From Alistipes sp. dk3624 (GTDB taxonomy: Bacteria; Bacteroidota; Bacteroidia; Bacteroidales; Rikenellaceae), in assembly GCF_009557455.1 (NCBI RefSeq), contig NZ_CP045651.1, positions 1,240,001 through 1,304,000 of the forward strand: a stretch of 64,000 nucleotides of DNA, in the 5' to 3' direction. The notes beneath the pieces were generated by a model. It did no database searches, was not told where the DNA came from, and saw nothing but the letters and a program-made list of their open reading frames with translations. Shown here piece after piece: positions 39,309-43,604 of this stretch; within the stretch, counting starts at the first letter, position 1, and every line of letters starts with the position of its first letter. Both the position numbers and the translations under genes were made by a program.

Positions 39309-39520
39309 CATTCGGTCAGCGCGGCAGGCCAATTCGGATCGTTCGCATCGGCCGTAGCCAAACGAATGTCGTAAACGATGCCGTCGCCGCAATAAGTGTA
39401 GTACAGATAAATCGGTCCGTCCTTAACGACCATGCAGGAGCCTCCGGTCCCGTAAGCCACTTTATGAATTAATTCGTTCGTACCCGCTACCAGCGGATCG
39501 GTGTCCTTCCGATACTTTGC
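39308..39520 (-). pseudogene. 3' remnant of a glycosidase-like gene
   Basis: An open frame ending at 39308 reads NELIHKVAYGTGGSCMVVK, GPIYLYYTYCGDGIVYD and IRLATADANDPNWP, a pattern I associate with the last blades of GH43/GH32-like beta-propeller enzymes. The 5' part of the frame runs into the ung coding region (ung stops at 39487) and is not like protein there. So only the C-terminal about 65-70 residues survive downstream of ung. The family assignment is tentative. The frame is free of stops, which may mean recent truncation. Confidence 0.55.
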
Positions 39521-40149
39521 AGGTATTGATTCGCCTGACTGAAATGACGGCACCCGAAAAAGCCCCGGTAAGCCGACAGCGGGGACGGATGCACGGTCTT
39601 CAGGATACAATTCCGCTGCGGATCGACCATCGACGCCTTACGCTGGGCGTAAGACCCCCACAGCATGTAGACAATCCCCTGTTTTTGCCGCGCGATAGCC
39701 TGTACGACGGCATCGGTAAACTGCTCCCACCCTTTTCCGGCATGCGAAGTCGCCTCGTGGGCGCGCACCGTCAACACGGCGTTCAACAGCAACACACCCT
39801 GTTCGGCCCAACGGTCGAGGTTGCCGCTCTGCGGAACCGGCGTCCCCGTATCGGCGTTCACCTCCTGGAAAATATTGACCAGCGACGGCGGAAACTGCAC
39901 CCCGTCGTTTACAGAGAAACACAGGCCGTTGGCCTGCCCGACGCCGTGATAAGGGTCCTGCCCGATAATCACGACCTTCAGATCGTCCGGATCGCACTTA
40001 TCGAACGCCCGGAAAATATTTTTCCCGGCGGGAAAAACCTGCCTCGTGGCATATTCCTGTTTGACGAACGCGGCAAGCTGCTCGAAATAGGGTTTCTCAA
40101 ACTCCGCTCCGATCAGATCTTTCCACCGCGGAGCTATCTTTACGTTCAT
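39487..40149 (-). CDS. ung: Uracil-DNA glycosylase
   Basis: A 220-residue family-1 UDG that removes uracil from DNA in base-excision repair. The catalytic water-activating motif IGQDPYHGVGQANGLCF is at about residues 61-77, the uracil-recognition segment is LLLNAVLTVRAHEATSHAGK, and the DNA-minor-groove loop is TVHPSPLSAYRGFFG. Length is normal. It starts 21 bases after the stop of the S24 regulator gene, so the two are probably co-transcribed. Confidence 0.96.
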   Translation of the reverse strand: MNVKIAPRWKDLIGAEFEKPYFEQLAAFVKQEYATRQVFPAGKNIFRAFDKCDPDDLKVVIIGQDPYHGVGQANGLCFSVNDGVQFPPSLVNIFQEVNADTGTPVPQSGNLDRWAEQGVLLLNAVLTVRAHEATSHAGKGWEQFTDAVVQAIARQKQGIVYMLWGSYAQRKASMVDPQRNCILKTVHPSPLSAYRGFFGCRHFSQANQYLQSIGRTPIRW

Positions 40150-40170: not shown

Positions 40171-40869
40171 TTACCGGATCGAGTTCATCCGTATGCTGGC
40201 TTTCACGAAAGCCAGCGCACGGATTCTGGATATTTCGACGTCCTTGTCGGCATGATGGACATTCTGGCTCACCAGTCTGACGCACCCCTCCTTGTCGGAC
40301 TTCTGGATATATTTGACCGTAATGTACTCCTCGCCGTCGATGTCGATCGAAAGCAGGTACATATCGCCCCAGAAAATGTCGTTGATGTCGTTCAACTGCT
40401 TGTACAGCACGATATCGCCGCTTTTGAGCAACGGATACATGCTGTCGCCTACGACATAAATCGCCCCGTCGCACTTCGGCAGATTCGGAATGTGGATGTA
40501 ATCCACCGGCTGCCGGGACGCCTTGTCCAGAAATAGCGGAACGAGGCCCGCCGTCCCCTCCACGTTGTACAGCGGCACGCTCTGCGATCCGACCGGGCGG
40601 TCGCTCCCCTTCAGGAAAGTCCGCTCGGGGAACTGCTCGTTGAACATGGCTCCCGTTCCGGATTCAAGCCATTCCGGATTGACATTCAATGTTTGAATCA
40701 AAATATTGCGGTTTCGTTCCGACAACGACGCCCTTCCGGTTTCGATCATCGACAACGCGCTTTTACCGATCCCTATGATACGGGCCATATCTTCTTGAGT
40801 CATCGACAATTCAGAGCGAATCATACGCAGCCGGTCGCACAAAATACGGATATCGTTATTTTTTTGCAT
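40171..40869 (-). CDS. XRE/S24 LexA-like regulator in operon with ung
   Basis: A 232-residue regulator; ATG at 40867-40869 was chosen because the only upstream start is TTG. The N-terminal XRE helix-turn-helix is MTQEDMARIIGIGKSALSMI. The C-terminal half is a LexA/S24 peptidase-type fold: VVGDSMYPLLKSGDIVLYKQ carries the Ser and a Lys lies in EEYITVKYIQ, about 40 residues further on, as needed for a Ser-Lys dyad. Between them (about 80-110) lies a linker with no obvious Ala-Gly cleavage bond that I can be sure of, so RecA-stimulated self-cleavage is only possible, not shown. Phage CI-like repressors and chromosomal SOS regulators share this layout. It is followed by ung. Confidence 0.88.
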   Translation of the reverse strand: MQKNNDIRILCDRLRMIRSELSMTQEDMARIIGIGKSALSMIETGRASLSERNRNILIQTLNVNPEWLESGTGAMFNEQFPERTFLKGSDRPVGSQSVPLYNVEGTAGLVPLFLDKASRQPVDYIHIPNLPKCDGAIYVVGDSMYPLLKSGDIVLYKQLNDINDIFWGDMYLLSIDIDGEEYITVKYIQKSDKEGCVRLVSQNVHHADKDVEISRIRALAFVKASIRMNSIR

Positions 40870-40908
40870 TTTTTCAGGCAAAAATGTGTTTTATTAAAAT
40901 ATTGAACT

Positions 40909-40952
40909 TATATTTGTACTGCAAAGTTAAACAGTTTTACACAAAATTCAAA
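40909..40952. promoter_or_regulatory. Overlapping divergent promoter boxes of the S24 gene
   Basis: CAAAGTTA at 40922-40929 reads TAACTTTG on the minus strand, with TTTG at 40949-40952 after a 19-base spacer. TATATTTG at 40909-40916 on the plus strand is a -7 box facing the small gene at 41070. The minus -33 lies inside an ATTCAAA repeat. Confidence 0.5.
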
Positions 40953-41057
40953 TAGAAATTGATATAAAGACTATTACAAGCTTTCCAAATTCAAATCTTA
41001 GATTCAAAAATTGTATAATCCATTTCGAACCGTTCTTATTTAATCTTTGTATTCAAA
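40946..41057. repeat. Four ATTCAAA direct repeats, candidate operators
   Basis: ATTCAAA occurs at 40946, 40989, 41002 and 41051 in a 112-base divergent region. They lie near the S24 promoter and before the gene at 41070. They may be operator half-sites, though the AT-rich context makes chance repeats possible. Confidence 0.4.
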
Positions 41058-41069
41058 ACTGCAAGAATT

Positions 41070-41348
41070 ATGATCACGATCACCAAACAAATTTACGAAG
41101 AAATTGCGGAACTTCTATTGGAAAAAATTCGGGAAAAAGATTTTTTTAACGGCACCGTCGAATACGACACCGACGAATTCTATTCCTCGCTGACCTGTAC
41201 GCTGATCATTTGCCGCGCCCCGGAAACCGGAATCATCCTCTCGGTACTCCCGGTGTGGTGGAACTACGACATCGCCCTGATCGATGGGGAGCAGCAAAGC
41301 GATTTCAGTTGGAACACCCTGAACCGATTCCTCGAAAGCCGGTTCTAA
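41070..41348 (+). CDS. Small unknown protein of the terminase module
   Basis: A 92-residue cytoplasmic protein: MITITKQIYEEIAELLLEKI, then a beta-rich middle (EFYSSLTCTLIICRAPETGI) and LPVWWNYDIALIDGEQQSDF, ending in a helix. No family recognised. It begins about 200 bases from the S24 gene on the opposite strand and is followed by the TerS-like gene after 19 bases, so it probably belongs to the same rightward operon. Confidence 0.65.
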   Translation: MITITKQIYEEIAELLLEKIREKDFFNGTVEYDTDEFYSSLTCTLIICRAPETGIILSVLPVWWNYDIALIDGEQQSDFSWNTLNRFLESRF

Positions 41349-41367
41349 ACATCGGAGATCCTGCCTT

Positions 41368-41907
41368 ATGAACATGACAGGTCCGGCGTACAGGTCCGGC
41401 GGGAAACGCATCCCGGTCGCGCGACCGCCCCGGCGCTCCGACCCGGAAACAAGTACGGGAAGCGCATCGGCGCCCGACGCGCTTCCCGGCACAAACCGAA
41501 AAACCATGACCGATTCCGAAAAAGCTTCCGTTTCGTCCGTTTCCGCAGGGGCTCCCGCCCCGGCCCGGCAGGAGAAGGCATCCTCCACGTTATACCCCAA
41601 AGCCCTGAAAAGCCTCGAAAAACGAATCCGGGGCTACCTGCTGAAAGAGGTCAAGACGACCTACGAATACGACGGAGACGGCAACAAACGAATCAAAAAC
41701 GAAACGATCACCCGCAAGCAGGTCGCCCCCGACCTGGCGGCGATCACATTCGCGCTGTCGAACCTCGATCCGCAACGATGGCGCGCAAAATCCGCTGCCG
41801 ACACGGGCAGTCCTCCGGACAACGACACTGCGGACGACGACCGTCCCGACCTGTCGGGACTGTCCGAACAAGCGCTCCGTGAAATTTCGGGATTGTCGGA
41901 ACTCTGA
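41368..41907 (+). CDS. Phage terminase small-subunit-like protein
   Basis: A 179-residue protein from the ATG at 41368, which has a GGAG 10 bases upstream; ATG 41506 is an alternative giving 133 residues. The first about 50 residues are low-complexity (Pro/Ser/Arg-rich). The core ITRKQVAPDLAAITFALSNL and DPQRWRAKS resembles the small terminase proteins of Bacteroidota phages (a DNA-binding segment before DPxRW), and the tail DLSGLSEQALREISGLSEL is a typical small-terminase ending. It would bind phage DNA and recruit TerL. It lies 105 bases before the terL-like gene. Confidence 0.7.
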   Translation: MNMTGPAYRSGGKRIPVARPPRRSDPETSTGSASAPDALPGTNRKTMTDSEKASVSSVSAGAPAPARQEKASSTLYPKALKSLEKRIRGYLLKEVKTTYEYDGDGNKRIKNETITRKQVAPDLAAITFALSNLDPQRWRAKSAADTGSPPDNDTADDDRPDLSGLSEQALREISGLSEL

Positions 41908-42012
41908 CGAACCGGTCGTACCCGTCCGAAATTTACTCCGGAGTACGACCGAATCCGACTCCGGTAAAATGGAAACCGCCCCCGTAACTTTTCGTCTTAA
42001 CCATACCGATCT

Positions 42013-43470
42013 ATGCTGCTTTCAAAACGACAGGCAGCGGCGGAACTCGCCCGCCGCTCGCTATGCGATTTCGCGCGGGTCTGCCAGCCGGCGATCCGCC
42101 TGACCCCGTTCCATCGCACTTACTACAATACGCTCGACCGCTTCGCGCACGGACAAATCCGCAGGCTGATCGTTTCGGTGCCGCCGCAACACGGCAAATC
42201 GCTCGGGTCGTCGGTGCTGCTGCCGGCTTACCTGCTGGGAATCGCACCGCAGACCCGAATCGCGCTGGCCTCGTACAACCTGCGGCTCGCGTCCCGCTTC
42301 AACCGCCGGGTACAACGTTTGATGAGCGAACCCGCCTACCGGGACGTTTTCCCCGCGACACGGCTCAAGACGTCCTCCGCAAAACAACCGAACGTGATCC
42401 GCACGAGCGACGAATTCGAACTGATCGGCGCTCCGGGCGGTCTGCTCAGCGTCGGGCGCGAAGGAGCGCTGACCGGCAACCCGGTCGACGTTTTCATCCT
42501 CGACGACCTATATAAAGACGCGGCCGAAGCCAATTCGCCGCTGATCCGCGACCATGCGTGGGAATGGTACAATGCGGTCGTCAAAACCCGGTTGCACAAC
42601 GATTCGCGCGAACTGATCGTCTTCACGCGCTGGCACGAAGACGATCTGATCGGACGGATCGCCGCCCACGAACCGGTACTCGAACTGACCGCCTCCTCGG
42701 AATCTTATAACGGAAAAACGCAGGCGGAACAATGGCTGCACCTGAACTTCGAAGCCGTCAAACAAAGTCCCCCCACCCCTTCCGACCCGCGAAAGCCCGG
42801 CGAAGCGCTGTGGCCGGAACGCCACGGCATACGGTTACTGGAACAAAAACGCAGACTCGACCCGCTGCTGTTCGAGACAATGTACCAGGGACATCCCGCC
42901 GTACGCGAAGGACTGCTATACGGCGACAATTTCAAGACCTACGACCGCCTGCCGGAAGATACCGTCCGCCGGGCCAACTACACCGACACGGCCGATACCG
43001 GCGAGGACTACCTGTGCTCGGTCTGTTACGAGGTGGGGCGCGACGGTATCGTCTACATTACCGACGCGGTCTATTCGCCGCTCGGCATGGAGGAGACGGA
43101 GATCCTGGTAGCCGACATGCTGCTACGCAACGGCACCGTCGCAGCCCGCATCGAAAGCAACAACGGCGGCCGCGGATTCGCCCGCGAAGTAGCGAAACGA
43201 TGCCGCGAAGTACGGGTCGAGTGGTTTCACCAGAGTCACAACAAGGAAGCCCGTATCCTGTCGAACGCCCCGGCCGTACTGAACCGCATTGCGATGCCGG
43301 CCGGATGGCAGATCCGCTGGCACGTCCTGTACGGCGACCTGGTCACCTTCCGGCGGCTGTTCCGCGCAAACCGGCGCGACGACGCGCCGGACGTGCTGAC
43401 CGGCATCATCGAGACGGAAAGCGAAACCGCTTCGCGAAAAAATATCCGGGCCGTCGGATTCAGCCGGTAA
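42013..43470 (+). CDS. Phage terminase large subunit
   Basis: A 485-residue packaging motor. Walker A is VSVPPQHGKSLGSS at about residues 54-67 and Walker B is VFILDDLYKDAAE near 158-170; FTRWHEDDL follows as a coupling motif. The C-terminal RNase H-like nuclease is suggested by LCSVCYEVGRDGIVYITDAV, RIESNNGGRGFAREVAKRC and the final DDAPDVLTG, with acidic residues in place. It cleaves concatemeric DNA and pumps it into capsids. No portal, capsid or integrase gene follows; transcription ends at the hairpin at 43573. Confidence 0.93.
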   Translation: MLLSKRQAAAELARRSLCDFARVCQPAIRLTPFHRTYYNTLDRFAHGQIRRLIVSVPPQHGKSLGSSVLLPAYLLGIAPQTRIALASYNLRLASRFNRRVQRLMSEPAYRDVFPATRLKTSSAKQPNVIRTSDEFELIGAPGGLLSVGREGALTGNPVDVFILDDLYKDAAEANSPLIRDHAWEWYNAVVKTRLHNDSRELIVFTRWHEDDLIGRIAAHEPVLELTASSESYNGKTQAEQWLHLNFEAVKQSPPTPSDPRKPGEALWPERHGIRLLEQKRRLDPLLFETMYQGHPAVREGLLYGDNFKTYDRLPEDTVRRANYTDTADTGEDYLCSVCYEVGRDGIVYITDAVYSPLGMEETEILVADMLLRNGTVAARIESNNGGRGFAREVAKRCREVRVEWFHQSHNKEARILSNAPAVLNRIAMPAGWQIRWHVLYGDLVTFRRLFRANRRDDAPDVLTGIIETESETASRKNIRAVGFSR

Positions 43471-43572: not shown

Positions 43573-43604
43573 CTCCGGGCGTTGCAAGAACGCCCGGAGA
43601 GTTT
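43573..43604. terminator. Terminator between terL and exbD
   Basis: Perfect 11-bp stem CTCCGGGCGTT / AACGCCCGGAG with loop GCAAG, followed by AGTTT on the plus strand; convergent genes meet here. Confidence 0.75.

Follow-up and report, generated by a model that had tools for sequence, protein, structure and literature searches.

What is a phage DNA-packaging motor doing among housekeeping genes, with neither portal nor capsid beside it? The window, a stretch of 64,000 nucleotides of Alistipes sp. dk3624 (G000:C1:1,240,001-1,304,000 of a 3.02 Mb chromosome), carries such a motor, described in a first-pass annotation as an orphan terminase module that was either the remnant of a prophage or a domesticated DNA-packaging system. 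We put at roughly three in four the probability that it is the regulator and packaging module of a gene transfer agent (GTA) that is found throughout the Rikenellaceae and split between loci. The module comprises the following features, in window coordinates:

40171..40881, minus strand: S24 repressor (HTH + S24 peptidase, CI/LexA type); PF00717 E 2.8e-12, HTH_19 E 5e-11
40894..40906, no strand assigned: predicted S24 operator TTAAAATATTGAA, overlying the -33 region of the module promoter
40909..40916, plus strand: -7 element TATATTTG, of the Bacteroidota TAnnTTTG type, in the predicted promoter to sm92-TerS-TerL; read in the sequence
40922..40929, minus strand: -7 element TAACTTTG of the predicted divergent S24 promoter; read in the sequence
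41003..41015, no strand assigned: possible second operator TTCAAAAATTGTA near sm92; read in the sequence, and also in L023, L027, L035, L037 and L038
41070..41348, plus strand: sm92, 92 aa, in the S24-TerL interval, with Y..PVWW and DF invariant in the family
41368..41907, plus strand: terminase small subunit (TerS)-like protein, 179 aa; PHROG 309 terminase small subunit, E 9.5e-8, residues 81-148
42013..43470, plus strand: terminase large subunit (TerL), 485 aa, ATPase and nuclease domains intact; PHROG 38 E 1e-85, Pfam Terminase_6N above cut-off
43573..43599, plus strand: terminator-like GC hairpin in the interval between TerL and the convergent ExbD gene; 11 pairs, loop 5

These assignments bear out what the first-pass annotation had read from the letters: a small protein, a TerS-like protein and a full-length TerL between chromosomal genes, with PHROG and Pfam support for both terminase subunits, and an S24 repressor on the opposite strand, facing away. 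The terminator it placed after TerL is a strong GC hairpin with a weak T-run, which may be bidirectional. The module is flanked by housekeeping genes (PheT, GuaA, uracil-DNA glycosylase, ExbD, ExbB and two tRNA-Leu), and Pfam finds no portal or capsid among them, with GuaA and the glycosylase on one side and ExbD and ExbB on the other. The uracil-DNA glycosylase gene (39487-40149) is on the same strand as S24, follows it after a 21-bp gap, and adjoins it in several other genomes. A search for the triplet in relatives, as had been proposed, recovered 69 loci in which the order of S24 (leftward), then sm92, TerS where present, and TerL (all rightward) is near-universal; sm92 occupies the S24-TerL interval in 61 of them. 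Because this order is constant while the outer flanks change, we regard the genes as a unit. No relative of sm92 was found in Pfam, PHROG or PDB.

Is the module decaying? Of the 112 Rikenellaceae genomes that are 90% complete or more, 108 encode TerL, almost always as a single copy and with no internal stops, as against none of 24 genomes from other families of the order. The Walker motifs and nuclease-like acids that had drawn attention in the window sequence do not vary across 26 family members, and the TRW motif is equally fixed. They comprise Walker A (PPQHGKS), Walker B (DDL) and RNase H-like D325, D328, E381, D457 and D460; such a degree of conservation cannot be due to chance. The proposed comparison of synonymous with nonsynonymous change gives dN/dS values of 0.045-0.15 for TerL in pairs of close species, indicating purifying selection, and the base composition and GC3 of the gene resemble those of host genes. 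The TerL tree of 26 species has 13 of 23 splits in common with the PheT tree (the best of 2000 random trees had 4), and TerL is correlated with the host (Mantel r 0.66, p 0.0001). When 44 Rikenellaceae TerLs were placed among 74 viral TerLs, the family formed one clade (SH-aLRT 98), sister to the phage contig L057 and inside a Bacteroidota phage group that includes B40-8; the most economical interpretation is that the gene was acquired once, long ago, and has been inherited vertically since. A complete prophage at this spot in relatives, accompanied by frameshifts, had been named as the observation that would speak for decay, and it is not what the family at large presents, TerL being broken in 2 of the 28 loci inspected closely (G014 and G013, both metagenome assemblies). 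Plain decay is refuted by the 108 open frames, the low dN/dS (0.05-0.15) and the host-like tree, and of the two possibilities originally offered it is the domesticated packaging system that survives.

Several other TerL sequences deserve mention. The TerL of the metagenome 'G021' (L050, 38% identity) was set aside as phage, and a second, distant TerL outside the window (G000:C1:1605071-1606375, L051, 36% identity) probably belongs to a separate prophage. The TerLs of G001 and G004 (L049, L048) carry an insertion of ~35 aa after residue ~225 that is absent from all other members. In the sm92-TerL interval, L190, L195, L196, L200 and L207 have in common an ORF start with a CCTCTGCGG...CCGCAGAGG palindrome before TerL, which may add an N-terminal extension to TerL.

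If the motor is under selection, what does it fill? The first-pass annotation had suggested looking for a portal or capsid gene elsewhere in the genome, and both are present in a family-wide, single-copy cluster, so that its 'orphan' label holds locally and fails genome-wide. A Pfam Phage_portal search found a match in 12 of 12 complete family genomes, and the head, tail and lysis cluster is conserved in all 12. In the window's own genome it has this composition:

G000:C1:1,057,848-1,069,149: head/tail/holin/lysozyme cluster, ~11 kb, ~216 kb from the TerL module
First part, in order: 108-aa, 257-aa and 143-aa proteins, 334-aa and 790-aa tail-type proteins, 202-aa and 88-aa proteins
Second part, in order: scaffold remnant, capsid, 178-aa protein, portal, 155-aa connector-like protein, holin, lysozyme, spanin-like protein
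Portal: PHROG 11226 E 4.5e-21; Pfam E 1.3e-7
Capsid: PHROG 1623 virion structural protein E 2e-8; PHROG 212 major head protein 5e-4
Holin: PF05105 E 8e-13
SLT lysozyme: PF01464 E 1.4e-10
Spanin-like lipoprotein: after the lysozyme

Most other genomes of the family encode a ClpP-type head maturation protease (PHROG 94, E to 5e-40). In G000 (G000:C1:1063757-1064106; L249:5757-6106), G008, G002 and G005 the protease domain is gone and a scaffold-like C-terminus is left. Since a search for a substitute in this sub-clade found none besides host ClpP, its predicted particle would have to mature without that domain. Despite the loss, TerL, portal, capsid and the 790-aa protein remain under strong constraint between G002 and G005 (dN/dS 0.025-0.067).

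The tail is less clearly drawn. A tail role for the 334-aa and 790-aa proteins is suggested by their position and by the relation of the latter to a 993-aa tail protein of L057 (E 2.4e-10). The tape-measure-like gene is short or unrecognised; the C-terminus of a 202-aa ORF (G000:C1:1062862-1063470) resembles by eye the end of Bacteroidota phage tape-measure proteins, which suggests that the tape measure is much reduced and the tail short, and no tail genes were recognised in G020 or G034. AlphaFold modelled both the capsid and the 790-aa tail protein with low confidence (mean pLDDT 50-52), and we give little weight to the Foldseek result in which phage head and capsid proteins top the viral library for this capsid model (E 4e-8 to 1e-4); against PDB they did not come first. 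The leader of the structural operon (G000:C1:1057750-1058225, and in G069, G002 and G005) contains repeated TTATCGACA/TTATnCACA-like words that resemble DnaA boxes.

Do the two loci belong together? Portal and capsid are each present in 108 of the 112 near-complete family genomes, practically as single copies, and TerL and portal co-occur (Fisher p 0.006). All three genes are absent from G016 and G028, portal and capsid from G111 and G127, and TerL from G120 and G122; some of these absences may be assembly gaps. Among 146 genomes from other families of the order, 3 have this portal; the best of these homologues, in G266, was discarded because it belongs to a phage whose TerL is of another type. 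Both portal and capsid follow the host tree (Mantel r 0.90 and 0.91, respectively, p 0.0001), with dN/dS of 0.011-0.107 and 0.025-0.28. G020 has the genes contiguous: S24 leftward, then a 78-aa protein, an 88-aa TerS, TerL, a 91-aa protein, protease-scaffold, capsid, portal and connector; in G034, TerL, capsid and portal all lie within 6 kb. These are basal genera, in which the terminase is still beside the head genes; the terminase and structural blocks are about 4-6 kb apart in G136 and G002, and in Alistipes the loci are separated, by 216 kb in G000. A portal of the B40-8 type was also considered as the partner of TerL and dropped, as it is absent from the 25 Rikenellaceae genomes searched apart from a 45-residue fragment in G017.

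This pattern bears on the idea that the terminase module acts on its own, as a DNA-repair nuclease or translocase or as a satellite-like module that hijacks a helper, and that the distant cluster is unrelated. The distance between the loci in most genomes is compatible with it, as are the DNA-damage-type repressor next door and the uracil-DNA glycosylase that adjoins it in some genera, the window's among them; yet the near-identical phyletic distribution of TerL and portal/capsid, the adjacency of TerL and head genes in G020 and G034, and the lack of an integrase or other satellite genes make it very unlikely. A PICI-like phage satellite was excluded because the flanks hold no integrase and the same genomes have their own portal and capsid, and a tailocin or other phage-tail bacteriocin because the family retains its portal, capsid, prohead protease and TerL.

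Could all this still be a prophage, either decaying or mobile and present in all species by chance? Every gene is phage-derived, and IMG/VR lists the cluster as a provirus (L290). Set against this, the genes occur in 108 of 112 genomes, in single copy, with open frames, host-congruent trees and low dN/dS, at two separate loci of which neither has an integrase, and we find such a prophage barely credible. For a temperate prophage in particular, the distribution is not patchy, and in G000 the TerL module has no integrase for 168 kb around it and the cluster none for ~14 kb, the closest being at 1,450,989 (169 kb away) and 1,042,714 (15 kb away), respectively. The IMG/VR record, a 12.9-kb provirus from an identical genome (L290, IMGVR_UViG_2814123265_000003), comprises the structural cluster. 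What the genome comparison shows is that phage genes for head, tail, lysis and packaging form an ancient, family-wide, single-copy set, vertically inherited and selected, at two loci and with a CI/LexA-like repressor as judged from its predicted protein.

How might such a set be controlled? S24 has a predicted catalytic pair (S147/K190) and a predicted self-cleavage site (A111-G112); among family members Ser is kept in 54 of 59, Lys in 56 of 59, and the Ala-Gly site in 53 and 57 of 59. The repressor is itself constrained (dN/dS 0.02-0.10 in close-species pairs), and it follows the host tree more loosely than TerL, portal or capsid (r 0.25, p 0.07). The operator consensus TTCAAwwwTTGAA is found in 53 of 58 S24/sm92 intergenic regions, the -7 element of the module promoter occupies the same place after the operator in most family members, and, for the S24 -7 element, a CAAAGTTA block is conserved in most of these regions. 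Near the structural operon the exact pattern proved too strict and had no match, and we used a weight matrix instead, which yielded operator candidates upstream of the operon in 5 of 19 genomes (G000, G002, G005, G136 and G069); in G002, G005 and G000 the best match of the entire structural locus precedes the operon by 318-351 bp. In most of the 19 genomes the matrix found no such link, and in several genomes the structural operon has a conserved predicted promoter of its own (TTGACA...TATATTTG). With operator candidates present in the window's genus and missing from most other genomes, co-regulation of both loci by S24 is suggested in that genus and not established.

The strongest pointer to the packaging of host DNA, as we infer it, is what has happened to TerS. 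Of the two parts of a phage TerS, the window protein has retained the C-terminal domain (residues ~72-176) and lost the N-terminal HTH. In phage contigs the family profile picks out TerS immediately upstream of TerL (E to 2.6e-21), and in the alignment the TerS proteins of phages with related TerLs show an N-terminal HTH ahead of the domain that the window protein shares with them. Low-complexity sequence replaces the HTH here and in most relatives; the HTH is still visible only in G019, and in many Alistipes the gap from sm92 to TerL (2-270 bp) leaves no room for TerS at all. In RcGTA, TerS has no specific DNA-binding domain, and the random packaging by RcGTA is attributed to that lack (PMC7947584). 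Because the HTH is lost, or TerS is absent in many Alistipes, there would be no choice of a pac site, and packaging would probably be near-random and headful.

Taken together, these elements would compose the following cycle. S24, bound to TTCAAwwwTTGAA operators, would keep the sm92-TerS-TerL operon silent until DNA damage induces its self-cleavage, as in CI/LexA. The other locus would supply the prohead from the ClpP-type protease/scaffold, HK97-like capsid, portal, connector and tail proteins; TerL would dock on the portal and fill the prohead with host DNA, near-randomly and by the headful where the TerS HTH or TerS itself is missing. Holin, lysozyme and the spanin-like protein would then lyse the cell, and the released particles would deliver their DNA to relatives.

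How closely does this fit a GTA? GTAs are defined as tailed-phage-like particles of Caudoviricete-derived proteins whose genome is fully endogenised, often at several loci, with mostly vertical inheritance and co-diversification with hosts; they package mostly random host DNA, and not their own genome in full, the head being too small, and deliver it to other cells (PMC9662315). At the level of genes, tailed-phage-like proteins are present (TerL, TerS, portal, capsid, ClpP-type protease, holin, lysozyme), the genome is endogenised (108 of 112 genomes, two loci ~216 kb apart in G000), and inheritance is vertical (13 of 23 splits; Mantel r 0.66-0.91). These are three of six definitional features, all read from sequence, for a predicted GTA. 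Loci 216 kb apart could presumably not be packaged together in a tailed-phage-sized head.

A domesticated particle need not serve gene transfer; it might be used for altruistic lysis or the killing of competitors, empty or filled with DNA, or for interference with infecting phages. The same conservation data fit such uses, since sequence cannot separate delivery from non-delivery, and the cluster includes lysis genes. Killing, though, needs no portal, capsid or catalytically intact TerL, yet all of these are under purifying selection, and PADLOC assigns no defence family to TerL, TerS or sm92, which led us to reject an antiphage-defence reading. We consider a non-transfer particle improbable, if the most serious of the competitors to a split GTA.

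Experimentally proven GTAs include RcGTA (Rhodogtaviriformidae), BaGTA, Brachyspira VSH-1, Dd1, DsGTA and CcGTA. In them, as in the Rikenellaceae, phage-derived head, tail and packaging genes are fixed and vertically inherited, often at several loci (PMC9662315, PMC7947584, PMC11841831), and RcGTA resembles the window in its TerS without a specific DNA-binding domain (PMC7947584). By contrast, the Rikenellaceae system belongs to another phylum, its TerL lies in a Bacteroidota phage clade in the tree of 74 viral TerLs, its terminase has a repressor-controlled locus of its own, often without TerS, and its function is predicted. FpGTA of Faecalibacterium (PMC12946183) is likewise a candidate GTA of a gut bacterium, with TerL, portal, capsid and a TerS without an obvious DNA-binding domain, but it belongs to the Bacillota and is a single 10.5-kb operon containing TerL. 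Among phages, Bacteroides phage B40-8 and Parabacteroides phage PD691P4 have TerLs 45-49% identical to that of the window, whereas they are complete lytic-type phages with a portal of another family. The nearest phage TerL (53%) is on the 33-kb IMG/VR contig L057, sister of the Rikenellaceae clade (SH-aLRT 100), whose 993-aa tail protein is related to the 790-aa protein of the cluster; unlike the cluster, L057 is a phage contig bearing replication-type genes and a capsid of its own.

Proven GTAs are few, and reviews hold their prevalence outside Alphaproteobacteria to be open, since such loci are mistaken for prophages (PMC11841831); L290 entered IMG/VR without recognition of the family-wide conservation of its cluster. 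A 2026 study of faecal particles reported GTA activity in Ruminococcaceae and Oscillospiraceae, and none in Rikenellaceae, though the family was among the donors' most abundant (PMC12946183). We found no GTA described in Alistipes, the Rikenellaceae or the wider Bacteroidota in the open-access literature that we searched, a scope that makes priority uncertain. On balance we lean, by a little, towards a broader proposal: that this is an ancient, independently domesticated GTA and a core trait of all Rikenellaceae, the first in Bacteroidota as far as we could find, with its motor in a separate module under a LexA/CI-like repressor and, in many Alistipes, without a recognisable TerS at the locus, so that TerL alone would package host DNA.

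If this is true, the Bacteroidota would offer a fresh, independent case of domestication, with intermediate stages preserved in living genera: the locus joined or split, and TerS with its HTH, without it, or lost. Alistipes, abundant in the human gut, would have built-in gene exchange and would provide a route of horizontal transfer there, one that standard prophage detection would file as a provirus, as IMG/VR does for L290.
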